DNA from: a virus
Virus record (IMG/VR): IMGVR_UViG_3300045971_000432
Span: 1 to 51,010 of that record
Strand: one strand, 5' to 3'
Length of the DNA stretch: 51,010 nucleotides
Made by a program: the position numbers and the translations under genes. Below, one piece after another: positions 5,178 to 37,933 of the stretch. A model generated the notes under the pieces. That model did not search any database. It was not told where the DNA came from and was given only the letters and a program-made list of their open reading frames with translations. The first letter of the stretch is position 1. Every line of letters begins with the position of its first letter.

Positions 5178-5185
5178 CATAAATA
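5178..5185 (+). promoter_or_regulatory. Late promoter-like box before nucleotidyltransferase
   Basis: CATAAATA, one mismatch from the T4 late box, lies 28 nt before the ATG at 5214. It heads the long plus-strand baseplate transcript and faces away from the sigma operon promoter, so the 5081-5213 gap is a divergent control region. Confidence 0.5.
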
Positions 5186-21900: not shown

Positions 21901-24817
21901 GTATTCTATTGACGATTTAGGCAAAGGCATGAAATTCGAATCTCTTCGTATAAATGAAAGATTGGAACCTGCAGATGTTGTGATAAATCAGATTATTAGA
22001 TTAGCGAATATCTATCACAATGGCGATGATTGTGCTCCAATTGTCAGACACGTAACGATTCAAGAAAAACAATTAACTAATACAACCAATTCACCATTAT
22101 CCGTTACTGATATAAGTGTGCTAAACTCCAGCATAGCTAAAATTATTAATGCGTCGATGATAAAATTCATTCAAGTGCCAACATTTGTTGCTCGTCCTGG
22201 ATATAATATTATAGATCAGTATTTTGAAGTTGTAGGTTACACATGGATTAATCCAACTAAACTTTCTCCTATTAAATTATTTGATTATAAAGAAAATACT
22301 TTAGTAAAAGAAATCGGTTTATGGCATCCTGCTATTGGTATTCATTCAGCAATGCCGCTTGAAATTGTTAATATGATAACTGATGTTGATCCTGCTGCTT
22401 ATAATTACACAACTCAAACGGTTAATAATCAAAATTATAAGCATCTTAAACCATGGGGACAACGCGAAGTAGGTCAAGTATGGTGGGATGTTAAACAACT
22501 TAGTTATATTCCGTATTATGATTCATCTATTTTCCCAAATAGAGATTCACGTCATTCCCGCTGGGGTGCATTAGCTGAATGGTCAAGTGTTAATTTATAT
22601 CAGTGGACAGAGAGCGATGTTCATCCTTCAAGCTATGATGCTTTGGCATCCTCACAAGAAGGCAATTCAAGTATAGATAAAACAGTTAGATTGTCTGGAA
22701 AAGCTGCTAATAAGAAATATTATAAGCGCGATAGAATTATTAATATTCGTCCTGTTGCTTGGTCTCAAATCGGTGGTGGTAATCAAAACGCCCATCCTGC
22801 TTTTGGACCTGCAGAATTTACAGCAACAAAAATTTCAGCTGCTGGCAATATTATTATCGCTGACAAAGGTAGAGTTGAAGATCTAAATCTAATTACTGAC
22901 AGACATTTTGCAGCATGGAAGGATAATAAACCAGTTGGTGAAGTAATAATCGGAGATGTTAAAGCATATGACATAGGATCAGAAAATACTTTTTCTGTAC
23001 CTACCATTATTTCAGATATACCAAGTATTGAATCAGTTAGATTATCTTCAATTGAAGATGGTTTATTTGGTTCACGTATTGGTGCAATATTCCTAAATGA
23101 TAAAAATTTCGGTGACGGAACAAATGCTCTTCGCATGAGTGATTCACAGGGATTTTATGAAGACGTTGTTATGATAGATTGGTTTAGTGATAATCCTGCT
23201 GTTGATTCTGAATTGGTAATACCATTTGTTAAATTTGGTTTGAATGTTATCTTAACCAGATCAACTGCTTTGCCTTATGCGGATTCTATAAGTGCTCTTG
23301 ACTTAATTTCTGCAGCTTCAAATGAAGCAAATGATATTTTTATCAGAGAAGCAATATCATTCACAGAAATTATTCCATTACCTGATATTATTTTTATTAA
23401 TAACCCTATTGATCCGCTGTTACAGAATCCGCTTTACTCTAATACAGAATATGAATGGAGAACTTGGAATGTTCCTACACAGTCAGAATTAAGTTCTGAT
23501 TTAATTTATCCTCGTAATACTTGGTTACCATATCTTGGCGACCAAGTTGTGATTACTGCATCTCCTTCTGTAGTTGCAGCAATTTCTAGTCCTGAAGCAA
23601 ACCTATCTCTTAGATCTGGTATATCGATTAACAGATATAATTCTATTTGGACTAACTGGGAAGAGCTACAAGTCGATCAACAAGAAATCATTAGTGATGG
23701 AACAAATTATATTTCTGTTAATTTGACAGACCCAATAGACATTACTAGATTATCTGTTTACTCAAATGGTATTCAAGTTAATCCATCAGGATATGTCGTT
23801 ACCGGAAATCTAATACAAATCGTAAATATACTACCGGAAGGAACTATATTAACAATTCTTTACCGTGCTTATTCTCCGTCAAGCAGTGAATTATCATTTA
23901 ATCCAGATGTTTCAGATGATCCTTCTATTCAGACACAGTATAAGTTAGATTATCAATTTACTCAGTTAGAAGTAAGAGACGAAAGTGGCAATGTTTCAGG
24001 CACTAAGTATTATTTCTGGGTACAAGATAAAACGATTCCTCAACCTGGTAAAAATATGTCACTAGTGCAGGCCGCAAATATACTTACCAGTGGTGCATCT
24101 GAATATACTATCTTCTCTAAATTAATTAAAGATACATCAGTAGATTCTTTGGGAGCATCATTTGATTCTTGCGCTATAGCTGGTTTGAATTACTTGGTTA
24201 CTAAAAACAATTCTTATAAATTACGCTTCTTAAGAAATTTTACCTTAAGAGATGATCCACAAGAATTAGATTTGAAAAACGTTCATACTGAATGGGCATT
24301 AATTAGAAAATCTCAATCGTCTAAAATCCCAAAAGCATTATGGGATGCAATAACTAATGCTGCAGCTGGACAAGATCTTGGTGGGAAAGCATTACCTTCT
24401 CAGACTAGATTAGATTATGATTCTAAGAACGGTACACGCACTCAATATGGATTAGGAATTGGACAAATATTTGCAGATTCAGATTTAGTTAAAGATACTA
24501 TAACTTATACTATTCTCAACACACAGTTGATACTTCGACTTGGAGATAAAATTATCACTGATAATATCTCAGCATTGAATTACGAAAATTCAGATACATG
24601 GTTTGATTCGCCAGAGAATACAAGAACAACAATGGGAATAATTTGGAATACTGGTAGAGCAAATCAAATTAATGAAATCTTTTTCAATGTATTAGATGAT
24701 TCTCTAGCTTGTAATTTTGAATTCGGTGATATATTTAAAACATCGTTAATAACAGTTAGTTCAACTACAAAAATAACAGAAACAATTCAACAGGAGCAAG
24801 TAGATGAGCTCTACTAG
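15914..24817 (+). CDS. Giant baseplate wedge protein in gp7 position (2967 aa)
   Basis: Very large tail protein between gp6 and a gp8-position gene, the place of T4 gp7 (1032 aa). The N terminus (LDNWMAEQSFNFTSPISVD, then KLINYANYYWVLDRSLTPSI) and long stretches of mixed beta/alpha structure fit a baseplate arm. Inserted modules are clear. A beta module occurs three times, at about residues 185-280 (FTAGDSFTVDI), 557-639 (FSVNESFTFKL) and 1367-1437 (FELGDKLVITF). A second module of about 100 aa occurs twice, at 286-405 (DGVKIMPGNRILVWQQ, NNGIYTVS, WVRTDDA) and 1117-1210 (DGVSLVAGDRVLLTAQ, FNGLYTVS, WARTSDV). Its last codons overlap the next gene. Calling it gp7 rests on order and size class, not on a direct T4 match; host-range or peripheral-arm roles are possible. 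Confidence 0.62.
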   Translation: MTKKQILDLNKLVPGSLKNETLTSLVSNLFNRFVSEERSVNVDGRIGKPVTGDANIAAPTLDREQNALIPALYFKNGSEENIFMFDDMLNKLKVLNADVSNLDNWMAEQSFNFTSPISVDKLINYANYYWVLDRSLTPSIPAWNKKIVPEYYVIQRPDNDSTQKLPVILATTRPINKFLNDRPPEQFTVTFTSVPPAPGVAQFTITSNHGTVFTNTNTLSSSDAFSETNIVLTGPDSGTDTVWELDDPDLIPEPLCSFTITNGYVPFTAGDSFTVDITYFTSEIYIAFNSPNQIGKGTINGVVTEAKNMYIDGVKIMPGNRILVWQQGAKQNNGIYTVSASKKWVRTDDATLESNFPLNMTVYVESGTLYGGKSFVLTNKQILGTNPDGSVNSKLFFELSPVHIDKQVNQWQEFNLWQHRDDLLAKNISIDSFAQAKRPIIEYFNTVEMNTGVINSEPVNSVNNYQQQKTRFNQIPQFNLYRYDGTYHGATSGLFFYVEDPDFDTDPVLLKKIKVTSDADYIFGTGTTDSEGRLLYYSQASELKSVWQAGPTVSTVSNITFNGGADKGSLVVSDLDQITDNQTWTLTNLSPTTFSVVGTRSGQLGNLTVGTPFVADDLTLTINDGLNQFSVNESFTFKLHSPIAPRYVRKDNDGNIVNYIGGVAGDATDGLIDGTWLNPLRMFQNLERETRQEITNGDLLNHVRSVIKNQNGFTGTSFGNNNVRSLNYESGLGGTIREYSSNFPLLASMLIQRDVSPLTIIDFAERQYMSALSSIDQFIINELANYLATVGVVTSSVIDPNAPDIVALSNYFESLRSEDVILRDTFSGTTAKVTNWPATLPMIGLAEAVVPSISFDYELGINIIVHHDGHISPIAVSNPEFDRTLVKSIVGRSDGAMTAGIFSETAPMSAYARQLWMKSSTLSVSIFDVIDDSDTPINGAAGDFWFKKSTSTLYEWDVVSNLWLVSGDSIASRWIPIKTDAIRNSLVLSIENKLYASVHPSQQINLDLTAARDTFYSQLELARFSAKNNYDTFAPDYISTDAFTWNYKQAVIPGIAITPARWYDIYAEYFNNPGVTISTVRPNLEPWKLVNFNTKPGGWDAAYKCTNQGSANVTANVKVVAQVDIAVLFGLQTIDGVSLVAGDRVLLTAQSLSQFNGLYTVSSTGWARTSDVLTNQLTVPVTSGSMENTCWSITTPNPFVTNIDSITFEQVRMWSTQMWLDIKSANPALKLCVNINNDSLIPPYVSSTKFYSSDALLTSIPNDIDAGYIYGDNGPIELVWSKSIEYLYSLARSMFRISPLEFLDKSWGETYMQVGTNARVERNLMSPLPSSKFLLHGERLNIVNSYSSQEIFNRINASAGIINWVGAGKIEFEVTHCANNLTVFNVYVNGQDMGIVNEGQLFSIPTTDGLTLTNIKIDDLGIPFELGDKLVITFLDDILSLDPNAPVIPALELGCEGCVADGTPDVAVVIIRTPQTPLFSHVAATTKKFKGLGQWFTQLLNYNYTDKDSSFTVNAYRNWTIKLAHRTGSLIRPDSLTINTTQGFLPQTAFETVLRRATNTQSIWLSALRIQLTSMGTKKINDEGLFVPAFNGDSADNWTFRIETYNPQHPLIEYYVLDTAGDYQTFYALNKQRTDLAFKRLTTSTALQQTTTPISITGLQNVINFIYGYVDRLENLGWKTNADDFPSIDAETGRNIDWQLEVEKLIDRVYGGMSVGEGHILNPFMYKMNLQTPVGLMSRYADVSFIDAYSIQAAYDVVGDVINIKDLYVTRTDEETFTRSNTPIFSAHVFIDEFEHVISLNQKFADEINAPIIFDSFLGQKIDSAYLNYVKQDGSEGKPTFDGFFLSGNDVQRNITSSISNMGNYYDASKTYSEETTAKHALALLGYTKKDYFTNIGINSTTQFNFWRGLIQAKGTNMTVDAFVNYKKFTDASVDEFWAYKVATYGDARERTFPEVKIEAGDVTQKFTRIQFYDINLPQNPLPQYTQIENTDTARWYSIDDLGKGMKFESLRINERLEPADVVINQIIRLANIYHNGDDCAPIVRHVTIQEKQLTNTTNSPLSVTDISVLNSSIAKIINASMIKFIQVPTFVARPGYNIIDQYFEVVGYTWINPTKLSPIKLFDYKENTLVKEIGLWHPAIGIHSAMPLEIVNMITDVDPAAYNYTTQTVNNQNYKHLKPWGQREVGQVWWDVKQLSYIPYYDSSIFPNRDSRHSRWGALAEWSSVNLYQWTESDVHPSSYDALASSQEGNSSIDKTVRLSGKAANKKYYKRDRIINIRPVAWSQIGGGNQNAHPAFGPAEFTATKISAAGNIIIADKGRVEDLNLITDRHFAAWKDNKPVGEVIIGDVKAYDIGSENTFSVPTIISDIPSIESVRLSSIEDGLFGSRIGAIFLNDKNFGDGTNALRMSDSQGFYEDVVMIDWFSDNPAVDSELVIPFVKFGLNVILTRSTALPYADSISALDLISAASNEANDIFIREAISFTEIIPLPDIIFINNPIDPLLQNPLYSNTEYEWRTWNVPTQSELSSDLIYPRNTWLPYLGDQVVITASPSVVAAISSPEANLSLRSGISINRYNSIWTNWEELQVDQQEIISDGTNYISVNLTDPIDITRLSVYSNGIQVNPSGYVVTGNLIQIVNILPEGTILTILYRAYSPSSSELSFNPDVSDDPSIQTQYKLDYQFTQLEVRDESGNVSGTKYYFWVQDKTIPQPGKNMSLVQAANILTSGASEYTIFSKLIKDTSVDSLGASFDSCAIAGLNYLVTKNNSYKLRFLRNFTLRDDPQELDLKNVHTEWALIRKSQSSKIPKALWDAITNAAAGQDLGGKALPSQTRLDYDSKNGTRTQYGLGIGQIFADSDLVKDTITYTILNTQLILRLGDKIITDNISALNYENSDTWFDSPENTRTTMGIIWNTGRANQINEIFFNVLDDSLACNFEFGDIFKTSLITVSSTTKITETIQQEQVDELY

Positions 24818-27800
24818 TAATTATATTAATGTTTCAAGTGGACACATCGACAGCCTAATTAATTATGTTGTTGATGTTAAACCGTATCACGTAAAATTAT
24901 CTGCTGTTGTAGAGCAATATCTATTCGAAGATACAGTTAATGCTAAAATAACAGAAGAACATAAACTATTAGCATTTCTTGGCGCTGATATTTTGCCTGC
25001 AACATCTCAGGCCCCCGGTGTTAGAGCACGCCGCTCATCATCCTGGTTCAGAGATGTTGTGTCTGATGGTCAGCGAAGAGTTTGGCCCGCACCATTAACT
25101 TCAGTTCATAAGTTGGCCAGTCATTCTAGTCAAGAGAAATTTACCTGTGGCGTAAATGACGATTTTCAAATTCCTGGAATCGGTCCGGGTGTATTTAATC
25201 AAAAGCGCTGGGATGGCCCGGGCATCACAGATGTATCTCATAATGGTGAACACCAACAAGATTCATTTGATTATTTTTTAAGTCATGGTGTCTACTCATT
25301 TGATATTAGACCTTTAGGAAGATGGAAAGAATTAAACATTGCACACGTTCCAGCGTTTGCTGAGAATCCTGGTGAGTTATTTTATTTAGATGTAGTTAAA
25401 TCATTTGGTACTATATCTAATATAGTCGGTGGTAATTATGAAGAATGGACAATAAAATGTATCAATGATGATATTGGCATTTTTGATGTTATAGGTTCAT
25501 CATCTGGTTTCATTGGTAACGTTGAATTTAATAATACTTTTACCCACTCATTGATTTCGTTTTCTTTCTTTCCTTCAGCTGGAGATTCAGAACCTTTTTT
25601 CTCAGATGGATTATCGGATATCAATGATGACGATCAAGGATTAATAGATGTTAGAAATTTTTCTAGTCAGAGTATATTCACGTTAACGCCATTTAATAAA
25701 ATAACTGTTGCACCAGATGCACCAATAGAATCTTGGTCTTTAATTAAAACTAATCCTATTGCTCTTACATCAAAACCGCAATTCTATTCACCTATGATAG
25801 GTAGATTGGATGTTCCCGCGCTTGAGGTTCATACTCGATCATTAGATAGAGCAACCGAGGATGCCACATGGATAGTAACCTTTGGAGCACAGGGTACATA
25901 TACAGTTCAAAAAATTAGTTTTAGTCAAACGTACATTAATTCAGAAAATTTAAGAAATGGATGTTCATTTAAAAATGATGATGTGCATTTTACCATCCTT
26001 CCAACTACAACTGGATTTTATCCAGGTGACTCATTCACATTTACATCGTCAGCTAGAGTTGAAAATTATCTAGTATTCGGTTCTATATCTGGATATCAAG
26101 CAAATGCTAAAATTGGAGAATGGTATTGGAATGGAAAAATTGGATTTAAGATTCCAGCTCTTGATTATTTTCCACATGTTCACAATACAACAATCATAAC
26201 ATCAAAAACTGCAGATATTAATTCTTGGCAGACTGTTGTAAGTAACAATCAAATATTGAAAAGCGTTTCATATGCTAATGGTTTCTTTTTAACAGCTGGA
26301 GAAAATTCGATTGTTGGTGCATCAGCAGATGGAAAAGTATGGTCTTCAGATGTTGCTTCAAATTTTACACCGGTGCCAAATACAATACTAACAGTAGTTG
26401 GAGCTGGTGGATCAATAGGAACAAGCACAGACGGAAATTTATGGTTAAAACAAGAAAGTCATACAACACATAATTTAAATGATACAGCAAATATTCCTAA
26501 TTTGTTATCATTATCCCTATTAGATCCTGCACCAACCGTAAATAGCATTTTAGTAGTAGGTGATCATGGAACTATTTTAACATCAGTAAATGGATCAGGC
26601 TGGGCAGATCAAAATAGCGGTACTCTACAGAATCTTAATGGTATCGCATGGTCAAATGATGGTATAATAGTCGTAGGTAGTAATGGAACAATTTTAAAAT
26701 CCTTAGATAGAATTTCGTGGGTTCATATACCTTGTCCAACAGGCTCCAATCTAAATAAGGTAATTTATGATATTTCTTCTAGTAGTTTTATTGCTGTGGG
26801 TGATAATGGATCAATAATAAAATCAACAGATGGCGGTGATACCTGGTTATACAAGGGAAATTCTGCACTCGTAGATTACAATTTAACGTCTATTGCTTCT
26901 GGTGATGGTAGATTAGTTGCTGTTAGTCCAAATGGATTGATAGTGACATCATTTTCTGCCGGCGATTCATGGCCTAGTCAACAATTCGGTAGAAAATTAA
27001 ATTCAATAACATACGGCGAAGGTGCGTGGGTTGCCGTGGGTGGTAAGTCTGATGAAAATATTTTCTTTAAGGCTCTCAAGACTGTTCACTCAATAGCTGA
27101 ACCTTCAGTCTACACGATTACATTTACATCTGCCACAACAGCAACAGTAGTAAACAATATCTATGGATATAGAAAAGGAGTTACTTATTTAAATCCAGCT
27201 TCTGACGGCAATTTTTATATTCATGTTGAAGATGAATTTGTAGAATTTAGTTTACAAGTAATTCCAAATCAATTTCAGTATCAAGCTGGAGACATTGTAA
27301 CTGTTCACTTAGCTCCAAGATATACATATGCTGGTTCAGCTTGGTATGATGAAAACTTTTATGATTTTTCTCCATATGATACCGGCATAGCTGACCTAAC
27401 AACAGCATTACTATATAATGAAGAATTATTTCCTCTTTACCATAGTCATGGATCAGTAATTTTTAAAACCTGTAATGCGGGTGATAAAATTATCATTGAC
27501 AAAGCATTTTTGGATTTAATGAGATTTAGAATTTTAGCTTCTTCAAGTACTCATCCAGAACTTGCAGCTATTGATGATTGGGTTCCATTAGAATTTAGAT
27601 ATTATGATCGATTAACTTCTGGCGCGCCATCATCTGAAGCTCACTTTTCAGATTTAACAACTTATATTGAAGCATATTTATCTAGCGATCCTTCTGTTAG
27701 AGTTCTATCTATTGCCCAACCACGTTTTGAAAAGACTAATAGGAATACATCTGCTACTTTAACATTTGATGCAGCGTTCTTTCTAAAGTACATGAAATTT

Positions 27801-28550
27801 AAGACTAAATATTCTGTCTTATATTTGCCAGATGATTCATATGGTCAACGTTTACGTGTAAAGATAACAGAAAATCTTAGAACTTATGCAAGAGTTAGAT
27901 TAATCTTCGATGAAATTGCTCTCATTAATATTAACGATTCGCCAGTTCAGCATTTCCATATAATTGGAGATATTGATTTCATCGATGTATTTAATGTACA
28001 ATTTGTAGAGGGTGGAGCTTTACCAATTGATGGTGGATATGATGTTTTCCCATATGACGTATTTAATTATGATCAGCGTATTCATAATGGTGTTCTTTCT
28101 GGTTTAGTTGAAGTGTCTCCTGGTGTTTATGATTGGACGGGTAACCCTGAAGATTATATTATGCCAAAGCCTACACTATCTCCTAGTATTTTCATAGAAG
28201 AAACTCCTAATCCTGATGCAGCATCCACATCATTTGTGGAAGGATTATTTATCGCAGAGAAAATAGTAGGTCAACCTATAATAGAACGCCTACACGTCAA
28301 TTACGACGTCAATATTAATACTTCTGGCTTAGTTATAAATCAGCAAGCTGAAGAATATGTTATAACTCACAATGGGCCGCCAGCTACCCCAACATTAAGT
28401 ATAGAATCATTAAATAATCTGGGAGTATTTGCTAGTCCTATGCCTAATTTATATCCATATCTTCAAATACCTACTGCATTAAGCTTAAAATCGTTCTCAT
28501 TTACTCTTCCGCCTGGCTTCTCTGCTCCATTTAAGCTGACGGTGGCGTAA
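24804..28550 (+). CDS. Baseplate/tail protein in gp8 position with seven-blade Ycf48-like propeller
   Basis: A 1248-aa structural protein starting 14 nt inside the gp7-position gene, with a good AGGAG site. The N terminus has DSLINYVVDVKPYHVKLSAV, a YxxDVKPYHxKL segment I associate with T4-like tail proteins. Residues about 480-750 hold seven WD/kelch-like repeats of roughly 35-40 aa with the Ycf48/BNR pattern: VVGDHGTILTS-x-W, VVGSNGTILKS-x-W, AVGDNGSIIKSTDGGDTW and so on. This predicts a beta-propeller, often a glycan- or protein-binding platform. Copies of the beta module found in gp6 and gp7 lie at about 200-266, 352-417 (FYPGDSFTFTS) and 765-839 (YQAGDIVTVHL). T4 gp8 is only 334 aa, so equivalence is positional. 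Confidence 0.58.
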   Translation: MSSTSNYINVSSGHIDSLINYVVDVKPYHVKLSAVVEQYLFEDTVNAKITEEHKLLAFLGADILPATSQAPGVRARRSSSWFRDVVSDGQRRVWPAPLTSVHKLASHSSQEKFTCGVNDDFQIPGIGPGVFNQKRWDGPGITDVSHNGEHQQDSFDYFLSHGVYSFDIRPLGRWKELNIAHVPAFAENPGELFYLDVVKSFGTISNIVGGNYEEWTIKCINDDIGIFDVIGSSSGFIGNVEFNNTFTHSLISFSFFPSAGDSEPFFSDGLSDINDDDQGLIDVRNFSSQSIFTLTPFNKITVAPDAPIESWSLIKTNPIALTSKPQFYSPMIGRLDVPALEVHTRSLDRATEDATWIVTFGAQGTYTVQKISFSQTYINSENLRNGCSFKNDDVHFTILPTTTGFYPGDSFTFTSSARVENYLVFGSISGYQANAKIGEWYWNGKIGFKIPALDYFPHVHNTTIITSKTADINSWQTVVSNNQILKSVSYANGFFLTAGENSIVGASADGKVWSSDVASNFTPVPNTILTVVGAGGSIGTSTDGNLWLKQESHTTHNLNDTANIPNLLSLSLLDPAPTVNSILVVGDHGTILTSVNGSGWADQNSGTLQNLNGIAWSNDGIIVVGSNGTILKSLDRISWVHIPCPTGSNLNKVIYDISSSSFIAVGDNGSIIKSTDGGDTWLYKGNSALVDYNLTSIASGDGRLVAVSPNGLIVTSFSAGDSWPSQQFGRKLNSITYGEGAWVAVGGKSDENIFFKALKTVHSIAEPSVYTITFTSATTATVVNNIYGYRKGVTYLNPASDGNFYIHVEDEFVEFSLQVIPNQFQYQAGDIVTVHLAPRYTYAGSAWYDENFYDFSPYDTGIADLTTALLYNEELFPLYHSHGSVIFKTCNAGDKIIIDKAFLDLMRFRILASSSTHPELAAIDDWVPLEFRYYDRLTSGAPSSEAHFSDLTTYIEAYLSSDPSVRVLSIAQPRFEKTNRNTSATLTFDAAFFLKYMKFKTKYSVLYLPDDSYGQRLRVKITENLRTYARVRLIFDEIALININDSPVQHFHIIGDIDFIDVFNVQFVEGGALPIDGGYDVFPYDVFNYDQRIHNGVLSGLVEVSPGVYDWTGNPEDYIMPKPTLSPSIFIEETPNPDAASTSFVEGLFIAEKIVGQPIIERLHVNYDVNINTSGLVINQQAEEYVITHNGPPATPTLSIESLNNLGVFASPMPNLYPYLQIPTALSLKSFSFTLPPGFSAPFKLTVA

Positions 28551-29280: not shown

Positions 29281-30282
29281 ATGCGTATAACTTTCAGACA
29301 AGGGTTAATTAGACATCAAACATCGTTATCTGGTCCAGACTGGTTACAAAAAACCAGTCTTTCAGGCACGTCAATTGATTTAAATGTGTCGGAAGAACCG
29401 ACCGTTATTACCTTCTCACATTACGGTGCAAATTATCTATTCGAAGAGAATAGAACTATTGTTGGCGCATGGGGTAGTGGTGCACTTGGATCTACTAATG
29501 GACCGTTAACTGCATCGGGACAAACACAGTATCTTTATTGGGATGTTGATTTAGCAACTGGTGCCCTCACACGAGGCTGGACATTAATACCACCATTTAT
29601 TTCTTCGACTGAACCAACAAACCCATTACCAGATTCGCATTGGTTTGATTTAATTAATACTCGCATGCGGGTCTTTAGAAAGCCTGGCTCAAGTCCTGGT
29701 TCATGGCAAGACAAAATACGTTTATTCGCAGCAACATATAGTTCCTCAGCAACAATTATACCTTTTCCTATTGGTTCGCAAGTAGGCATTACAGATGGAA
29801 ATTATACAACTGGTAATTTAATACTAGGTGTTAATAATAAACCACTTAAACAATCAGATGGAACATTTGCTACTACTGAATCTGATTTAATAATTTATCA
29901 AACTAGCGGTCAAAATGTTAAATTTGACATGGCTTTGGTGTATGCTCAAGCTAGTGAAGAAATACCAAAATTTTATCTAGTCTCATTTCAGCCAGACAGA
30001 AGAATGGGATTAGCATCATCTAACAACATGAATAGTTTTGTTAGTGGAATAGTAGTTGAGGATTTACACCAAGAAGAAGTCGGTCAGATAATAACCGGGG
30101 GTGTAGTTAGAAATGAACAATGGAATTGGGGTACTGCAAATATTAATAGACCACTATTCTGTGGCGCATCTGGAGAAATTAAATTAACTCCACCAGCAGT
30201 TGGATTCGTGCAGCAAGTTGGATTTGTATACGATCAAGATTCAATTTATTTTAACCTATTCGCACCAGTGAGGTTAAGATGA
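29281..30282 (+). CDS. Probable baseplate-fibre connector / tail structural protein
   Basis: A 333-aa protein without signal or membrane segment. The N terminus MRITFRQGLIRHQT and the strand LNVSEEPTVITFSHYGANYLFEE are followed by YWDVDLATGALTRGWT. The C-terminal block GGVVRNEQWNWGTANINRPL, CGASGEIKLTPP and VGFVYDQDSIYF reads as a beta-rich end domain. I recall similar blocks in fibre-associated proteins of marine T4-like phages, but I cannot name a family. Its stop overlaps the next start as ATGA, so it is made with the fibre-like protein that follows; the pair may assemble together. Confidence 0.5.
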   Translation: MRITFRQGLIRHQTSLSGPDWLQKTSLSGTSIDLNVSEEPTVITFSHYGANYLFEENRTIVGAWGSGALGSTNGPLTASGQTQYLYWDVDLATGALTRGWTLIPPFISSTEPTNPLPDSHWFDLINTRMRVFRKPGSSPGSWQDKIRLFAATYSSSATIIPFPIGSQVGITDGNYTTGNLILGVNNKPLKQSDGTFATTESDLIIYQTSGQNVKFDMALVYAQASEEIPKFYLVSFQPDRRMGLASSNNMNSFVSGIVVEDLHQEEVGQIITGGVVRNEQWNWGTANINRPLFCGASGEIKLTPPAVGFVQQVGFVYDQDSIYFNLFAPVRLR

Positions 30283-31253
30283 GTCATATAGTTGGTTTAA
30301 AACCGATAGTCATTGAGATAGATGGTGTCTACGGACAGTTACCTGATGGTGGAATATTAAATGCTGGTGGAACAAGCTTTAGTTCTTGGACAGTCGATGG
30401 CCGTGGCTTACTATTTGATGATGGTACAAGCACGGCCCCTGGTTCAGGCACAGCTAACTCAATAACGCTTCAGTCTGTTTATAATAATAGCCCAACCGCT
30501 GCGGGCGCAACATCAATAAAATTATCTACTGGCAAAGATTTCGTAATATCAGATGATACTGATGACGGCATATATTTTAAAATAGATGCTGAGACTGGTA
30601 AGGTAACTATTACTGGTGATTTAGAAGTTCTTGGTTCTTCTTCAGTTATCGATTCCATAATTCAAGATAGTGATCACTGGTTAATCAGTCCTAAATTAGG
30701 AACAACATCTGCTCTTAAAATTGAACCAGATTTTGGTGTAATACCGGTCGTAGATTTAGTAACAATAAGAAGAACATTCGCTTCATTGCCAGTATTCAGA
30801 ATCGATTCATCTGGTAATTTAATTGCGTCACAAAATTTAACTATTGGCGGATTGATAAATGGTGTAAACATTGTCAGTCTTAAAAGTGAAGTTGATCATC
30901 ATGCTGCGGGAGATACCGGATATAGACATTATGCAGATGATGTAGATATTTTACCTATCCCTGGTTTAACCGGGGCATCCAATGTTCAGGAAGCTCTTGA
31001 ACAAATAAATAACAATGTTAATTCTGGAGGAGGTGGAGGCGGTTCAGTAATTGGATATGAACACGTTCAATCTGCACCATCAACATTGTGGACAATTACC
31101 CACAACAAAAATACATTTAAACTTCAGACAACAATTTACAATACTAATTGGGAACAGCTCGTTCCTAACAATATACAAATAATAGATAACAACACCGTTC
31201 TAGTGTCATTTAATGCACCAATAGCTGGTAGAGCAATGCTACTTTTGTTCTAA
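30279..31253 (+). CDS. Tail fibre-like protein with C-terminal WxIxH module
   Basis: A 324-aa fibre-type protein. Residues 1-60 resemble a virion-attachment part, residues 85-200 are short beta repeats (KDFVISDDTDDGIYFKIDAE, GKVTITGDLEVLG, DSSGNLIASQNLTIGGLING) of the kind found in fibre shafts, and a helical stretch with TGASNVQEALEQINNNV precedes a Gly-rich hinge (six Gly near residue 252). Residues 259-324 are the module shared with four downstream genes: WTITHNKNTF, then QLVPNNIQIIDNNTVLVSF and a hydrophobic LLLF end. The attachment helix EALEQI with GASNVQ is common before fibre tips. It likely acts in host contact. Confidence 0.65.
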   Translation: MSHIVGLKPIVIEIDGVYGQLPDGGILNAGGTSFSSWTVDGRGLLFDDGTSTAPGSGTANSITLQSVYNNSPTAAGATSIKLSTGKDFVISDDTDDGIYFKIDAETGKVTITGDLEVLGSSSVIDSIIQDSDHWLISPKLGTTSALKIEPDFGVIPVVDLVTIRRTFASLPVFRIDSSGNLIASQNLTIGGLINGVNIVSLKSEVDHHAAGDTGYRHYADDVDILPIPGLTGASNVQEALEQINNNVNSGGGGGGSVIGYEHVQSAPSTLWTITHNKNTFKLQTTIYNTNWEQLVPNNIQIIDNNTVLVSFNAPIAGRAMLLLF

Positions 31254-31268
31254 AAAACTACGAATTGC

Positions 31269-31276
31269 CATAAATA
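31269..31276 (+). promoter_or_regulatory. Late promoter-like box before DUF5659-like gene
   Basis: CATAAATA, identical to the box at 5178, lies 44 nt before the ATG at 31320 in the gap after the fibre-like gene. Confidence 0.42.
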
Positions 31277-31319
31277 TTATCGAACGTCTATCATAACTCA
31301 GACTAAATAGGATGACATA

Positions 31320-31550
31320 ATGTCAAAGAAAACAATAGAAACACAAGATATAGTGCTGGCAGCAACCCTAAAAATGCTTGGATATCGCCTCGAAACGATT
31401 GAAAAGATTGGCAACAAAGGAATTTTTAAGTTCCCGGATGTTGATGACAATGTCGTAAATGACTTTGATTTAGGCAATCTAAAAGTAGAACCAGTTTCTT
31501 TTAATTCAGCCATTAAGGCATTAACAACTGCAAGTCGCAGAACACTTTAA
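31320..31550 (+). CDS. Small DUF5659-like protein
   Basis: A 76-aa protein with the pattern ETQDIVLAATLKMLGYRLE, then KGIFKFPD and a closing helix AIKALTTASRRTL. This resembles DUF5659, small phage proteins of unknown function in which T-x-D-x-x-LAA-x-L-x-x-x-GY is the opening and an F-x-F-x-D strand follows. It sits alone between two fibre genes with its own late promoter-like box; in other phages such proteins also lie among tail genes. A chaperone or regulatory task is possible, but nothing in the sequence shows it. Confidence 0.6.
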   Translation: MSKKTIETQDIVLAATLKMLGYRLETIEKIGNKGIFKFPDVDDNVVNDFDLGNLKVEPVSFNSAIKALTTASRRTL

Positions 31551-31598
31551 TCTGTGATAGAAAAAGTAATTTAACAACACCTCATAGGGAGATTCCAA

Positions 31599-34136
31599 AT
31601 GAAGATCAATGGTAATTTAGTATTTAACTCAGATGCAACTGGTGAAGTCCAGCATGCATATATAGAACGTAGAGCTTCTGCTCCTGGATTTGACAGTGGT
31701 CATAAAGGTCGTTTGTATTTCAATACATCAACTTCTTTGTACTACTTTAATGATGGCGCTGCTTATGTTCCTTTCGCTACTGGCGGTAATGCAACAGCAA
31801 TTCAAAATGAAGTGGATGCTATCGAAGCTTCCCTTGGTTCTGCTGTAAATGGCGACGGTACATTTAACTCAGCTGGTATCAGTGGTTCACCAATCATCGG
31901 TTCAGCAACAAGTTTCACAAATGCTTTAAACTTATTGGCAGCTGCAGCAAATGCAACTGACACCTTAGGTGAATTGCATGACGTAACTCTTGGCACATTA
32001 GTAAATGGTCAATATTTAAGATATAATTCTGGTACTGGCATGTGGGTAAATAGCACTCTTGTAGTTGCTGATCTTACCGATCTCACTGCTTCAGCTGCAG
32101 AATTAAACATTCTTGATGGTGCAACTCTTGATGTAACTGAATTGAATTATGTTGACGGTGTTACATCTTCAATTCAAACTCAATTAAACAACAAGCAACC
32201 ACTTGATGCAGGTCTTACTGCTTTAGCCGTATTCAACTCAAACGGTATTCTTGTTCAAACTGCTGATAACGTATTTGCTGCTCGCAATTTAATCGAGCCG
32301 GCTGCTGGTGTAACTATTGCCAATAGCGATGGTGTTTCTGGTAATCCAACATTTGCTTTAGCAAACGATTTACAAGCAGTTGAAGGTCTTGCTGGTTCAG
32401 GCTATGCTGTTCGTACTGGTACAGACACTTGGACTACTCGCACTATTTCTGGTATCGCTGGTCGTACTGTTGTTTCAAATGGTGACGGTGTTGCTTCTAA
32501 CACTGATATCGATCTTGCGACTGTTACTGATTCTGGTGCTGGTACATTCAAGAAAATCACGGTAGATTCTTATGGTCGCGTAAATGGTACTGTAGCTGTA
32601 GCTGCTGCTGATATTACTGCATTAGTAAGTGGTATCTATGTAGACGTTGCTGGTGATTCAATGACTGGTAACTTGACTATGACAGGTGGTGCTACTGTTA
32701 CTGGTCTCCCAGCTCCTGTTGCTGGTACTGATGCAACTAATAAAAACTACGTTGATGCTGCTGTTGCTGGATTATCTTGGAAACAAGCTGTTCACGCAAT
32801 GTCTACAACTAACGTTGATATCTCTTCTGCTCCTACGACAGTTGATGGTCACACATTGTCAGCAAATGAACGTGTATTATTAGTTGGTCAAACAACTGCT
32901 TCTGAAAACGGTATCTACAAATTTACAGCTGCTGCAGCTGCGTTAACCCGTACTACTGATGCTGATGCATTCGGTGAATTATCTGGTGCTGCTGTCTTCG
33001 TTGAAGAAGGTACTCTTTATGCTAATTCCGGTTGGACACAATCAACTGAATTAACTTCTTTCTCTGGACAAGTATGGGCACAGTTCACAGGTGCTGGTAC
33101 ATATGTTGCTGGTGCTGGTATGTCTCTTACTGGTAATACCTTCGACGTAAATCTCGGTGCTGGTATTGCTCAGCTTCCAACAGATGAAGTTGGTATCGAT
33201 CTTTATAGCTCAACATCTGCTCTTATCCTTACAACTGACGGTACAACTGGTGGTTCAACAGCTACTGGTGCTAAGCTTCACTTGAAACTTGGTGCTGCTG
33301 GTGGTTTAGTTCAAGATGTAACTGGTCTTTATGTAGCAGCAAATGGTATTACTAATGCCATGGTTCTTAATGATACACACGCATTGAACGCTGACTCTGG
33401 TACTGGTGCTCTTGCTCTTGGCGATACATTACTTGTTGTTGGTAATTCTCCACAAGGTATCGTAACTTCTGTTGCTGGTTCTACATTCACAATTACTGCA
33501 TCTGATGCGTCAACATCACAAAAAGGTGTTGCTCGTTTTGACTCTGGTGACTTCGATGTTGCTTCTGGTATTGTATCAGTTAAGGCTGGTGGTATTGACA
33601 ATGCACAACTTGCGTTTGCTTCAGTAACTGTAACTGGTGATACTGGCTCTGATGCAGTTGCTCTTGGTGAAACATTTAGTATTGTTGGTGATGGTGAATC
33701 TGTTACAACTGATATGGTTGCTAATGAGCTTACTATCTCTGTACGTGAAGCAACTTCTTCATTAACTGGTGTTGCATCTTTTAATGCTGCTGATTTCACT
33801 GTTACTGCTGGTGCTGTTACTGCAGTTGCTAAAAATCTTGATAGCTTGACTGACGTTGCTGTATCTGGTCCTACATTTGGTGATACATTAGTTTACAATG
33901 GTACTAACTTTGTTAATGTAAAAACTTACTTCTTGTATTCTGGTTCTACTGCTACATCTCACACTGTTGATCATAACTTGGGTCAGAAGTATTGCAACGT
34001 TACTGTTGTTGATGCTACAGATGAAGTTGTTATTCCACAGAGCATTACATTTAACTCTTCTAACCAATTGACAGTTGCTTTCACTTCTTCAATTGCATGT
34101 AAAGTTGTTGTAATGGGTGTTATGAGTGCAGCATAA
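31599..34136 (+). CDS. Long repetitive tail fibre protein (845 aa)
   Basis: Probable long or short tail fibre. The N terminus (GRLYFNTSTSLYYFNDGAAY) is the virion-attachment type. Typical shaft motifs follow: LTASAAELNILDGATLDVTE, LNYVDGVTSSIQTQLNNKQP and, near residue 350, GDSMTGNLTMTGGATVTGLP with ATNKNYVDAAVAG. At about 395-500 lies the module also found twice in the gp7-position protein: LSANERVLLVGQ, ENGIYKFT, LTRTTDADAF. Residues about 776-845 form the terminal WxIxH-type module, here with VDHNLGQKYC and VVIPQSITFNSSNQLTVAF. Gly, Ala, Thr and Val dominate. Codon use (GGT, GCT, CGT, CTT) is unlike the neighbours, which prefer GGA, AGA and TTA; this can reflect strong expression or recent exchange. 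A strong AGGGAG site precedes the ATG and a strong terminator follows. Confidence 0.85.
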   Translation: MKINGNLVFNSDATGEVQHAYIERRASAPGFDSGHKGRLYFNTSTSLYYFNDGAAYVPFATGGNATAIQNEVDAIEASLGSAVNGDGTFNSAGISGSPIIGSATSFTNALNLLAAAANATDTLGELHDVTLGTLVNGQYLRYNSGTGMWVNSTLVVADLTDLTASAAELNILDGATLDVTELNYVDGVTSSIQTQLNNKQPLDAGLTALAVFNSNGILVQTADNVFAARNLIEPAAGVTIANSDGVSGNPTFALANDLQAVEGLAGSGYAVRTGTDTWTTRTISGIAGRTVVSNGDGVASNTDIDLATVTDSGAGTFKKITVDSYGRVNGTVAVAAADITALVSGIYVDVAGDSMTGNLTMTGGATVTGLPAPVAGTDATNKNYVDAAVAGLSWKQAVHAMSTTNVDISSAPTTVDGHTLSANERVLLVGQTTASENGIYKFTAAAAALTRTTDADAFGELSGAAVFVEEGTLYANSGWTQSTELTSFSGQVWAQFTGAGTYVAGAGMSLTGNTFDVNLGAGIAQLPTDEVGIDLYSSTSALILTTDGTTGGSTATGAKLHLKLGAAGGLVQDVTGLYVAANGITNAMVLNDTHALNADSGTGALALGDTLLVVGNSPQGIVTSVAGSTFTITASDASTSQKGVARFDSGDFDVASGIVSVKAGGIDNAQLAFASVTVTGDTGSDAVALGETFSIVGDGESVTTDMVANELTISVREATSSLTGVASFNAADFTVTAGAVTAVAKNLDSLTDVAVSGPTFGDTLVYNGTNFVNVKTYFLYSGSTATSHTVDHNLGQKYCNVTVVDATDEVVIPQSITFNSSNQLTVAFTSSIACKVVVMGVMSAA

Positions 34137-34160
34137 GTAGTAACTATTATGTAATAATCA

Positions 34161-34187
34161 AAAAGGAACCTGAAAGGGTTCCTTTTT
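34161..34187 (+). terminator. Intrinsic terminator after the long fibre gene
   Basis: AAAAGGAACC (34161-34170) pairs perfectly with GGTTCCTTTT (34177-34186) around a 6-nt loop and runs into a T tract. It lies 24 nt past the fibre stop and separates it from the next promoter. Confidence 0.88.
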
Positions 34188-34206
34188 CATTTGATCTACA
34201 GATTTT

Positions 34207-34214
34207 GATAAATA
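34207..34214 (+). promoter_or_regulatory. Late promoter-like box for small fibre-module genes
   Basis: GATAAATA, one mismatch from the late octamer, lies 38 nt before the ATG at 34253 and just past the terminator of the long fibre gene. Confidence 0.45.
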
Positions 34215-34252
34215 GATTTGTTGAAGAATTCTTCTATTAAAGGATAAACAAA

Positions 34253-34855
34253 ATGAAATTTTATGGCGAAGCCCATTTACAACAAAACAACTTAAGAGAT
34301 GCTGTTATTCCTCTTGATACAACGTTTCCAGTTTCACCTAAGGTCGGTCAAATTGTATTCAAAGATCGCATCTTATATATTTGCGTTGAAATAACTGGTG
34401 GTTTACCTATTTGGGTTCCACTAACAAACGAAATCACTGCGTATACGCATATTCAAAGTACTAATGCATCTTCATGGACAGTAGTTCATCCATTAAATAC
34501 TTCTCACGTGAGTGTAACAGTATATGATACTTCTAATAGAGTAGTAATACCAAACGAAGTTATCATTAACAGTTCAAGTTCCGTCTCAGTTGATTTTGGA
34601 ACACCAGCCCAAGGTAAAGTAGTAGTACTTACAGGTAACTTTGATGGACAATCAAAACCTACTTATGCTTATGAGTTCTTCCAGACTAATCCAAGCGATA
34701 CATGGGTTATTCCACATGCTCTTGGTCGTTATCCAATTATCAGAGTGTTTATTGGTAATCAGGAAGTTCAACCAGCATCAATAACATTTGACACAATGGA
34801 TCAAGTTACTATTACCTTTAGTACTCCTCAAGTTGGTCAAGTTAAACTAATATAA
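34253..34855 (+). CDS. Small fibre protein with two WxIxH modules
   Basis: A 200-aa protein. The first 60 residues (MKFYGEAHLQQNNLRDAVIP, then VGQIVFKDRILYICVE, PIWVPLT) resemble the attachment heads of phage fibres that show a visible strand pattern like the long fibre's N terminus. Two copies of the shared module follow. Residues 64-130 contain SWTVVHPLNTS, then NRVVIPNEVIINSSSSVSVD; residues 136-200 contain TWVIPHALGRYP, then NQEVQPASITFDTMDQVTIT. The pattern is aromatic-x-hydrophobic-x-H, a turn, then a VIP strand and a final hydrophobic strand. It probably binds a surface receptor or caps another fibre. The AAAGGAT ribosome site is strong; 8 nt separate it from the next gene. Confidence 0.68.
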   Translation: MKFYGEAHLQQNNLRDAVIPLDTTFPVSPKVGQIVFKDRILYICVEITGGLPIWVPLTNEITAYTHIQSTNASSWTVVHPLNTSHVSVTVYDTSNRVVIPNEVIINSSSSVSVDFGTPAQGKVVVLTGNFDGQSKPTYAYEFFQTNPSDTWVIPHALGRYPIIRVFIGNQEVQPASITFDTMDQVTITFSTPQVGQVKLI

Positions 34856-34863
34856 GGAATATC

Positions 34864-35106
34864 ATGGGACTTTGCAAACCTTCAATTTATCGTCATGTCC
34901 AAACTGATCCATCAGCATCTTGGGTAATTACGCATAATTTAGGATCTAACGGAAGCACAGGACTTCCAATTGTTGATATTTTTATTGACGATGGTGCTGG
35001 CACTATAACGAAAGTTATAGCAGCTGGCGTTGAAAAAACAAGTAGTAATGTCGTGACTGTAACCTTCGCTGAACCTAGAGTTGGTGAAGCTGTTATTATC
35101 GTTTAA
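34864..35106 (+). CDS. Free-standing single WxIxH module protein (80 aa)
   Basis: An 80-aa protein that consists almost only of the fibre-tip module: YRHVQTDPSASWVITHNLG, then LPIVDIFIDDGAG and NVVTVTFAEPRVGEAVIIV. It follows the two-module gene by 8 nt with an AAGGA site, so it is translated separately rather than as a read-through tail. A five-residue lead (MGLCK) is all that precedes the module. It may be an interchangeable tip, a decoy or a subunit that binds other fibre proteins. No signal peptide. The closest relatives are its neighbours in this window. Confidence 0.68.
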   Translation: MGLCKPSIYRHVQTDPSASWVITHNLGSNGSTGLPIVDIFIDDGAGTITKVIAAGVEKTSSNVVTVTFAEPRVGEAVIIV

Positions 35107-35115
35107 GGGGATAAT

Positions 35116-35358
35116 ATGACAACACCATCAGTAGGCGGAATTAAATTTCTAGAGTTTACACAATCTACGCCAGCAACAGTTTGGACAATTTATCATGCAT
35201 TTGGAGTTCATCCAATTATTGATGTTAATGTTAATACAGCAGGCGTAATTGCTAAAGCATTTCCAATGTCAATTGAACATGCAGATTTAAACACCTCAAT
35301 CGTACGCTGGTCAACAGCAAGAATGGGAACAGCAACACTTGCAGCAACAGTAGCATAA
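35116..35358 (+). CDS. Free-standing single WxIxH module protein, second copy (80 aa)
   Basis: Another 80-aa protein made of one module: FLEFTQSTPATVWTIYHAFG, then HPIIDVNVNTAGVIAKAF and a final strand TARMGTATLAATV. It shares layout with the preceding gene but is clearly diverged, which suggests an old duplication with separate selection. A good AGGGGAT site lies upstream. A perfect inverted repeat follows the stop and probably ends this transcript before the spanin genes. Confidence 0.66.
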   Translation: MTTPSVGGIKFLEFTQSTPATVWTIYHAFGVHPIIDVNVNTAGVIAKAFPMSIEHADLNTSIVRWSTARMGTATLAATVA

Positions 35359-35360
35359 AT

Positions 35361-35384
35361 TATAGTCTCCAGCTGGAGACTATA
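35361..35384. terminator. 24-bp perfect palindrome, probable terminator or operator
   Basis: Half-site TATAGTCTCCAG is followed at once by its exact reverse complement. As RNA it folds into an 8- to 10-bp stem with a 4-nt or larger loop. The downstream stretch is TATTATAAAAAAT rather than a pure U tract, so a protein-binding site cannot be excluded. It divides the fibre-module genes from the lysis genes. Confidence 0.5.
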
Positions 35385-35407: not shown

Positions 35408-35881
35408 ATGTCGATATTAGATTTTGCTAGCGGTATTACTGGAGCAAATCCGGTGCAAAGTGCCAAATTGGTCGTAGGTGGTTTAATAATTGGTGCTGTG
35501 CTTTTAGGTGGGGGATTGTTGGCTTGGAAATATCACAGCCTAACTTCAGAAATTGAATCTCTTACAAAAGATAACGGGATTTTAACAAGCAATAATAAGA
35601 TTCTTCAAGAAAATAATAATGTTATTAAAGCTAATATGGCAACTTTAGTCGATGCAAATAAAGTTAACGCAGCAACAGCGCAAGCATTAGTTGAAGAACG
35701 CAAGCAATCTCAGACTGCTATTTCTACTTTAGCAAATACTACAGCTTCAGATAAAGCTGTAATTGCTAAACTAAATCAAAAATTAAAAGACCTAATTAAA
35801 GATCCAACAAATGATGGACCGCTTGCACCGGCTCTCCGTGAAACAGTAAGACAAGTACAAAATACTAGGAGTCCAAAATGA
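35408..35881 (+). CDS. Inner-membrane spanin-like protein (Rz-like)
   Basis: A 157-aa protein whose layout is that of an i-spanin: a short N terminus, one membrane segment at about residues 20-40 (VVGGLIIGAVLLGGGLLAWK) and a long helical coiled-coil region (residues 45-140) rich in Asn, Lys and Glu. The following gene overlaps it by 4 nt (ATGA) and encodes a lipoprotein, which is the classic two-component spanin arrangement. i-spanins span the periplasm and help fuse inner and outer membranes at the last step of lysis. Sequence similarity within this class is low, so the call rests on topology and pairing. A strong AGGGAG ribosome site precedes it. Confidence 0.78.
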   Translation: MSILDFASGITGANPVQSAKLVVGGLIIGAVLLGGGLLAWKYHSLTSEIESLTKDNGILTSNNKILQENNNVIKANMATLVDANKVNAATAQALVEERKQSQTAISTLANTTASDKAVIAKLNQKLKDLIKDPTNDGPLAPALRETVRQVQNTRSPK

Positions 35882-36264
35882 AAATTATCTTATCGATATT
35901 ATTAATCTCGCTTTTGAGTGCATGCAATTCTATTCCAACTGTTCAGCAAGAACACGTTGTGGTTAAACAAATTGAATATGTTGTTAAAATTCCACCAGCA
36001 GAATTGATGACACTTCCAGCTCAAGCTGAAAAGATAGATATTGATACGGCATCTCAAGCTTCTGTTGCGCAGTGGGTTTTAGCAAGTGAAGAAAGAACTA
36101 GAACATTGGAAAATATGTTAAAAGGTATAGCAACATTTTTCGTTGTTGAGCAAGCTAAAGCAAAAGATGCTGCCGATACAAAAAATGCATTTGCTTTAAT
36201 AGAAGCTGGCGCATCTGATGCGGCCTTTGCTGATAAAGTTATTAAAACTCCTGTTAAAAAGTAA
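35878..36264 (+). CDS. Outer-membrane spanin-like lipoprotein (Rz1-like)
   Basis: A 128-aa lipoprotein. The signal sequence MKIILSILLISLLSAC ends in a lipobox (L-S-A-C) with the modified Cys at residue 16. After it comes a Pro-containing segment, KQIEYVVKIPPAELMTLPAQ, like the PP-E-x-x-x-x-P region of Rz1 proteins. The rest is helical. It is longer than lambda Rz1 (60 aa), but long o-spanins are known. Its start lies inside the i-spanin stop. It implies a Gram-negative host with an outer membrane. Confidence 0.78.
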   Translation: MKIILSILLISLLSACNSIPTVQQEHVVVKQIEYVVKIPPAELMTLPAQAEKIDIDTASQASVAQWVLASEERTRTLENMLKGIATFFVVEQAKAKDAADTKNAFALIEAGASDAAFADKVIKTPVKK

Positions 36265-36271
36265 AATTTAA

Positions 36272-37933
36272 ATGTCTTGCAATTGCGAAAAATCTGTTAA
36301 GGTTAGTTTATGGACGCCTATTCCACCCTATAAGCAGCCAACGCCTATAATGCCAGGTGAAAATATAGATTGCTATGCGAAGCGTGCAGGCAATCAATCT
36401 GGTGAACAGCATGATATGGCTGAAAAGCCTCCCGGTAAAATAGATAATACTTCAGTTACATCTGATCTTAATGGCAAAGTAGATGAACAAATGAAATTAA
36501 CAGATGGCTCGCCAGATACACCAGCCACTTGGAGAATATGGGTTGATGGTTCTCCTGGTATACCAGCCGGTATGGGATTAAATTTTAATACAGCTACTGG
36601 AAAATTAGATGGTGAAGCAGCAGAATCATTCACTAATAAAAATTATAAAGTTTTAGTCAAAGCATTTAAGTCAGATGAAACAGAAATTGATTCGCGTGAA
36701 TTTAATCTGTTCCCAAAGAGCGCAGGCAAAGAAGAAACTATCAAATTCGTATTTCCATACTCGCCTTCCGGAAGAGTTACATCACCATTTGGACCAAGAA
36801 TACATCCAGTGACTGGAGATCAAAAGCAACATAATGGAGTTGATATTTCGCAGCCTGGTTCAGAACTAGGAAATATATTATCAGCTGCTGATGGCACAGT
36901 TGTTGCGGCTGGACCTGCTGCGGGGTTTGGAAATAGAATTATCATAGAGCATAAAGATGCAAATGGAAAATTAGTAGCATCAACATTATATGCACACATG
37001 AAAGCATCTGAAATTTATGTTAAAGTAGGGCAAAAAGTTTCTGCTGGACAAAAAATAGCTCTTGAGGGAAATGAAGGAGTTGGAACTGCATCTCATTTAC
37101 ATTTTGAAATGCATAAAGGTGCATATGGAAATCCAGTGGATGCAGTACCGTATTTAGATGGAAAATTTGATGTAGCTACTAATAATTTGCCAGGACAAAA
37201 TGGTGTACCAGATCCAGCTTCAATTAAATCCGTAGATAATAAAAATAAAGGAATGACTGGTAGTGAAACTGCAGGAAAACCTGCGGCACCAGGAAGTGCC
37301 GGTGGTGGAAATAAATGTGCAGATAGAATACCTAATCAAGCAGGAGATACGTCTACACCAGAAGAATCTGGAATGAATGGAACTGCAACAGCTAGACCCC
37401 CATTAGGAGCTGAACCAGCAGCAGTACCAGTAAGTTCTAATCCAAATAAAGCTGCAACTCAAGCACAGATACAAAAAGCATTAGATGAAGATTCAACATT
37501 AACAGCAGAAGATAAAAAACAGCTAATGATGGTTGCAAAGATAGAGAGTGGGTTTGATCCCGCTGCTAAAAATCCAACATCATCTGCTCGTGGGTCATAT
37601 CAAATGCTGGATAAAACGGCCAACACTTATTATAAAAAGATCGGTGTTGAACCAACTATAGAAAATAGAAATGATCCCTACTTAGCAACAAAAGCTCAAA
37701 TAGAATTTTATAAATCTGAACAAAAGCCAGCATATGAATCATTTATTGCTTCAGGCGGAACTAAGATAAATGGAAAGAATCTGAGTGCTGATACTCAAGC
37801 TAGATATGCTGGAATAACCCAAGGCGAATTTACCTATGGGTTAATACATCATGATGGAATTGGTAATGCTGGAAATGGGAAAGATATGGGTGGAGTAGAT
37901 TACTACCGCACCCAAATTAGAAAAGCGGGTTAA
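36272..37933 (+). CDS. Bifunctional peptidoglycan hydrolase: M23 endopeptidase plus SLT transglycosylase
   Basis: A 553-aa wall-degrading enzyme. The N terminus is Cys-rich (MSCNCEK). Residues about 75-135 look like a putative Ig fold (GLNFNTATGKLDGEA). Residues 160-290 form an M23 metallopeptidase: SPFGPRIHP, HNGVDI with the Zn-binding His and Asp, then HLHFEMH carrying the H-x-H pair. A Pro/Gly-rich linker leads to an SLT lytic transglycosylase from about 415: MMVAKIESGFDP with the catalytic Glu in KIES, then SARGSYQML. It follows the spanins by 8 nt and lacks a signal peptide. It may be the endolysin, which would need a holin, or a virion-associated hydrolase replacing the lysozyme missing from the gp5-like spike. 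No ribosome site is obvious. Its stop overlaps the convergent gene's stop. Confidence 0.88.
   Translation: MSCNCEKSVKVSLWTPIPPYKQPTPIMPGENIDCYAKRAGNQSGEQHDMAEKPPGKIDNTSVTSDLNGKVDEQMKLTDGSPDTPATWRIWVDGSPGIPAGMGLNFNTATGKLDGEAAESFTNKNYKVLVKAFKSDETEIDSREFNLFPKSAGKEETIKFVFPYSPSGRVTSPFGPRIHPVTGDQKQHNGVDISQPGSELGNILSAADGTVVAAGPAAGFGNRIIIEHKDANGKLVASTLYAHMKASEIYVKVGQKVSAGQKIALEGNEGVGTASHLHFEMHKGAYGNPVDAVPYLDGKFDVATNNLPGQNGVPDPASIKSVDNKNKGMTGSETAGKPAAPGSAGGGNKCADRIPNQAGDTSTPEESGMNGTATARPPLGAEPAAVPVSSNPNKAATQAQIQKALDEDSTLTAEDKKQLMMVAKIESGFDPAAKNPTSSARGSYQMLDKTANTYYKKIGVEPTIENRNDPYLATKAQIEFYKSEQKPAYESFIASGGTKINGKNLSADTQARYAGITQGEFTYGLIHHDGIGNAGNGKDMGGVDYYRTQIRKAG

Follow-up and report, generated by a model that had tools for sequence, protein, structure and literature searches.

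A repeated fibre module encoded in a fixed gene array of jumbo phages, and its candidate role as a docking domain

A module of about 62 residues, present in six copies in five genes of one tail-fibre array, is read here as a docking or capping domain of jumbo-phage fibres which would also build a short accessory fibre from three small proteins (T, S1 and S2), with S2 outermost; our confidence in this reading is evenly balanced. The direct evidence comprises the module family itself, the fixed gene order, the vertical descent of each position, the operon signals, the domain fusions and the virion presence of the F2 orthologue of phage PaBG. The analysed stretch was a virus record of 51,010 bases, the whole of which is called the window, in which baseplate, virion, spanin and endolysin genes flank the array. 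F1, F2, S1 and S2 carry one copy each and T carries two. The features are as follows:

30279..31253, + strand: F1, fibre-like protein of 324 aa, with module 1 at its C-terminus (aa 260-323, about 31056-31247)
31599..34136, + strand: F2, long fibre of 845 aa, with an N-terminal attachment-type domain, a shaft and the C-terminal module 2 (aa ~777-840, about 33927-34118)
34160..34187, + strand: terminator-like hairpin after F2, recurring in the F2-T gaps of relatives
34207..34214, + strand: GATAAATA, T4-late-promoter-like element heading the predicted T-S1-S2 unit, kept as [AC]TAAATA in relatives
34253..34855, + strand: T, 200-aa protein with a fibre-type N-terminal domain (34253-34438) and modules T1 and T2
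34442-34633, + strand: module T1, aa 64-127 of T
34670-34852, + strand: module T2, aa 140-200 of T
34864..35106, + strand: S1, stand-alone module of 80 aa (module at aa 9-80)
35116..35358, + strand: S2, stand-alone module of 80 aa (module at aa ~12-77), the most variable position
35361..35384, no strand assigned: strong predicted hairpin closing the T-S1-S2 unit, upstream of the spanin gene

The module family and its array in relatives

A leave-one-out profile recovered each copy (E 9.9e-14, 5.7e-10, 5.2e-14, 4e-12, 3.8e-14 and 8.9e-10, in gene order), while no window ORF other than the five genes fell below E 0.25 in the module-profile search. The six copies that an earlier note had placed here are therefore real (leave-one-out E 9e-10 to 4e-14), and its proposal of one family with a common fold is supported for both homology and fold; the long-fibre copy departs from the family motif in having neither its W nor its Q (SHTVDHNLG). 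The good ribosome site claimed for each small gene was also found close upstream of the ATG (AAAGGA at 34239 for T, AAGGAA at 34854 for S1 and AAGGGG at 35105 for S2), those of S1 and S2 overlapping the stop codon of the preceding gene. The AlphaFold2 monomer model of S1 had five strands (pLDDT 91.5), and that of T had the N-domain and two such modules (pLDDT 85, pTM 0.52), with unsure relative domain placement.

No Pfam family was found for the module, PDB sequence searches returned only chance matches, and tblastn with the consensus module returned only nine records, apparently F2 genes. Among BFVD predicted viral structures, 39 matched the module at E <= 1e-3, many in fibre-like proteins and often annotated as 'hypothetical' or even 'HNH endonuclease'. 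The latter label is probably wrong for two proteins with the fibre module at their end, encoded among tail-fibre genes (L006 4148-4957 and L007 3961-4788; also phrog_24148).

Viral contigs were scanned twice with the T protein, and the wider scan yielded 52 loci, including contigs of 310-350 kb; named relatives were the Erwinia phages Y3 and Yoloswag, Dickeya AD1, Yersinia fHe-Yen9-02, Pseudomonas PaBG and Phage NCTB. All the loci with a complete T, which belong to jumbo phages, had F2 upstream and S1 downstream of it (n = 42/42, a figure that overstates independence, since several Erwinia loci are near-copies). F1 occupied the equivalent position in 35 loci, and S2 was present in 29 of the 42, these 29 forming the window's own large-genome group, and was missing from the Erwinia-type group. 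The array genes share orientation and one fixed order, and F1/F2/T/S1(/S2) was also the order in PaBG and NCTB. In some phages homing-endonuclease-like and other genes intervene between T and S1, indicating that close adjacency is not essential; they include homing-endonuclease-like reading frames, apparently interrupted (L016 7661-8279), and a 309-aa gene of unknown family present in several Erwinia phages and missing in others (L007 9611-10540).

A shortened T copy of 136-137 aa, with the N-domain and one module, was seen at L034 6543-6956, L041 2549-2962, L052 2587-2997 and L061 7355-7768, downstream of F2 and, where T is covered, upstream of T. Outside the array, the complete or near-complete genomes checked encoded between one and a few additional modules, some of them at the ends of proteins of 138-288 aa. 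Lu11, HRDY3 and AR9 have the F2 module and lack the T and S genes. When bacterial genomes were scanned with the alignment of T, no relatives came up, so this T family was not found in prophages.

Descent and conservation of the module positions

Identity between modules at the same position across phages was 35-55%, while across positions inside one phage it was 22-34%, no higher than across phages. On a tree of 112 modules the position labels required 6 changes (minimum 5; shuffled mean 72.8) and the phage labels 106; the alignment had only 70 columns and many forks were open, but the contrast of 6 against 106 is very large. The modules group by position and not by phage, indicating that each position descends vertically. 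Nearest neighbours from the same phage at another position were nearly absent until only very distant phages were compared, where F1, S1 and S2 had no clear same-position neighbour, as expected from signal loss.

On the tree and the identity tables, module swapping and gene conversion were rejected. The earlier note had regarded the array as a cassette of alternative or co-assembling tips, in which the small-gene modules recombine with the fibre ends to change host range. The fibre ends and the small genes do have the module in common, and the array is a fixed one; the comparison of the locus in related phages that the note had called for was run, and neither C-terminal swaps nor any exchange between positions were seen among the 112 modules. 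A reading as alternative tips is not supported, given that modules cluster by gene position across phages, and the co-oriented genes, kept in one fixed order, also speak against a recombining cassette. Contradicted across the loci examined, this explanation is highly improbable. Co-assembly, the other half of the proposal, is plausible, because T, S1 and S2 form one predicted operon and T is accompanied by S1 in 42/42 loci.

Conservation was compared as mean identities over 21 phages having all parts. The highest values were those of the T N-domain (0.63), the F2 module and T2 (both 0.59) and the F2 N-domain (0.50), followed by T1 (0.46), S1 (0.42), the F2 shaft (0.40), the F1 body and module (0.40) and S2 (0.35), the only position with variable behaviour. 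Within the long fibre, conservation is thus highest in the end module (59%, the shaft reaching 40%), and this speaks for a structural interface; the pattern of a tip, with a terminal domain more variable than the shaft, was absent in F2, and judged from sequence its end module appears unlike a host-range tip. A conserved ligand could also cause the high conservation of T2 and the F2 module.

These values bear on a second explanation, that each module is a receptor-binding head and the array a set of several fixed, different small adhesins side by side. The low likeness of modules within one phage (only ~22-34%), the variability of S2 and its tie to lectin-type domains, and the presence of the module in fibre-like proteins of many unrelated phages (BFVD) are all consistent with it. 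In contrast, the F2 end module and T2 are conserved above both shaft and endolysin, and binding domains, where found, are additions for which the module provides the base; parallel adhesins are accordingly possible yet doubtful.

Operon signals, domain fusions and virion evidence

A hairpin of -15 kcal/mol or stronger was detected in 41 of the 44 F2-T gaps examined, and all three exceptions carry X137, an additional T-like gene, within the gap; in two cases, as in L061, the hairpin precedes X137. The heptamer [AC]TAAATA, which resembles the T4 late promoter TATAAATA, was located 3' of the hairpin and <=62 nt from T in 25/26 of the large-genome-group loci examined (expectation 0.42), and was never found there upstream of S1 or S2. 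With a hairpin after F2 and the element before T only, T-S1-S2 is predicted to form one late operon, separate from F2. On the plus strand of the window, six of the eight ATAAATA sites lie 28-51 nt upstream of a gene start (positions 5179, 10746, 15863, 28563, 31270 and 34208), which suggests T4-like late promoters throughout its structural region.

Positions 24804-28550 of the window encode a 1248-aa tail-region protein, perhaps an adhesin propeller, whose YCF48/BNR-like repeats matched PSII_BNR at E 1.6e-5, narrowly missing the Pfam cut-off. Directly 3' of the fibre operon, positions 35408-37933 hold a spanin-like gene, a small gene of lipoprotein type and an endolysin gene with matches to peptidase and transglycosylase.

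C-terminal additions to S2 occur in several relatives: L032 has Laminin_G_3, L028 has F5/8 type C, L040 has PKD together with seven FG-GAP repeats, and L029 has a stretch of unknown sequence. The S2 of L022 has ~440 residues inserted between beta2 and beta3, that is, between the first two and the last three strands; its two portions align with positions 1-51 (aa 25-79) and 20-62 (aa 499-547) of the profile, and the split point was read by eye, as these profile ends overlap. Likewise, the T-type N-domain with T1 runs on into a tail protein (L062) or an S74-chaperone fibre (L063). The S2 and T-type fusions indicate that the module can serve as a base for binding domains; the 'tip' of the earlier note is hence doubtful, since in relatives the module is followed by lectin, PKD/FG-GAP or fibre domains or is interrupted by an insert. 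Inherited in fixed order and unshuffled, the set looks more like connecting joints and carriers for adhesins than like tips that could be exchanged. If the module is a docking joint, evolutionary change of the receptor-binding domains would be located at S2 and not at the end of the long fibre.

T matched phrog_21918 over its full length (E 4.7e-51, aa 1-199 on profile positions 1-199 of 200), and hhalign aligned its first ~60 residues with the first ~60 of F2 (P 4.5e-5, probability 69%, 53 columns), so T is plausibly a fibre without a shaft, made of an attachment domain and two modules. Virion evidence is available for F2: PaBG gp257 was found by MALDI in CsCl-purified PaBG particles with a listed mass of 57,162.97 (PMC7412058 Table 1), and PaBG_00257, computed at 57,162.2, is the orthologue of F2 and ends in the module. 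The T orthologue gp258 (22 kDa) and the S1 orthologue gp259 (8 kDa) were not among the 14 stained bands of the 10% gel (PMC7412058), which cannot settle the presence of gp259, as an 8-kDa protein would run off such a gel.

That S1 and S2 (or T) are non-virion assembly chaperones that aid fibre trimerisation, like T4 gp57A or the non-structural gp38, would agree with the absence of the small proteins from the bands detected in PaBG, and their genes adjoin the long-fibre gene, a classic location for chaperones. The fibre-type N-terminal domain of T argues against this, as does the occurrence of F2 with its module but without T or S in Lu11, HRDY3 and AR9; the fusions of S2 to lectin, PKD/FG-GAP and F5/8C domains and the fibres combining a T-type N-domain with S74 fit virion parts. 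Chaperones are thus unlikely, and we infer that T, S1 and S2 are virion proteins.

A slightly less likely alternative is that these proteins form the hairs on the sheath or capsid of 'hairy' myoviruses and not baseplate fibres. Phages Y3, AD1, Lu11 and JA11 have been described as hairy (PMC6143709), of which Y3 and AD1 share the array and Lu11 and JA11 carry at least F2; PHROG labels, among them virion structural and head decoration, point the same way. Lu11, however, is hairy without T and S, which are therefore not required for hairs.

Under the preferred reading of a docking or capping domain, the module would be a five-stranded beta-sandwich that closes the C-termini of F1 and F2. T would anchor to the virion through its N-terminal domain of long-fibre type, T1 and T2 would form the hub of the accessory fibre, and S1 and S2, produced from the same late message, would dock onto that hub, S2 being the outermost piece, to which carbohydrate-binding domains would be attached in some relatives. 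We further infer that T, S1 and S2 bind one another, with S2 distal. More tentatively, such fibres may consist partly of separately encoded single-domain beads, with the docking domain acting as cap, hub and free subunit and the outermost bead carrying lectin domains at its C-terminus or in a loop. A docking joint would account for a widely conserved, unannotated jumbo-phage operon and would offer a handle on accessory-fibre assembly.

Comparison with known fibre systems

In the literature, nothing specific was found on small accessory fibre proteins of this kind, and Foldseek searches of the PDB with the T and S1 models gave no match at E <= 1e-3. The second-best PDB match of the T model was TSP4 of phage CBA120 (7rej; E 9.5e-3, prob 0.90, TM 0.24), which was not within the top 50 matches of the S1 model. 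By hhalign the module scored 20.3 against XD2 of CBA120 TSP4, the null maximum being 15.3 (200 natural fragments and 150 shuffles); this weak likeness (single-sequence P 8e-4, profile P 1.9e-3) is a lead and not membership, as four XD segments were tried. No match was obtained with XD3 (P 0.39-0.59), and HMMER gave no significant sequence match between the module and the XD domains.

The XD2 and XD3 domains (CBA120 TSP4 and TSP2, and T4 gp10) are small beta-sandwich or jellyroll domains repeated in adjacent fibre or spike genes, as the module with its predicted beta-sandwich is here, and those of CBA120 TSP4 dock other tailspikes (PMC8825819). They have been shown to dock fibre trimers into branched complexes, whereas the module is known here from sequence and monomer models; moreover, the XD domains described so far form the N-terminal portions of large spikes, while the modules end fibres and stand alone as 80-aa proteins. 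The branched tail-fibre complex of RaK2, also a jumbo phage, joins several fibre proteins via repeated small XD domains; in the part of that account drawn on here (PMC10253068), its branches are large, mostly depolymerase proteins, and stand-alone single-domain proteins are not described.

Close counterparts are also the phrog_21918/T proteins of Y3 (Y3_097), fHe-Yen9-02 and PaBG (gp258), full-length two-module orthologues accompanied by a single module of 70-80 aa; these phages differ in having one stand-alone module (S1) and no S2, and the Y3 and fHe-Yen9-02 orthologues show ~37-39% identity. The T4-type gp37/gp38 pair likewise has a small late gene immediately 3' of the long-fibre gene; to our knowledge T4 gp38 has no domain in common with the fibre end, whereas the small proteins described here are themselves the fibre-end domain.
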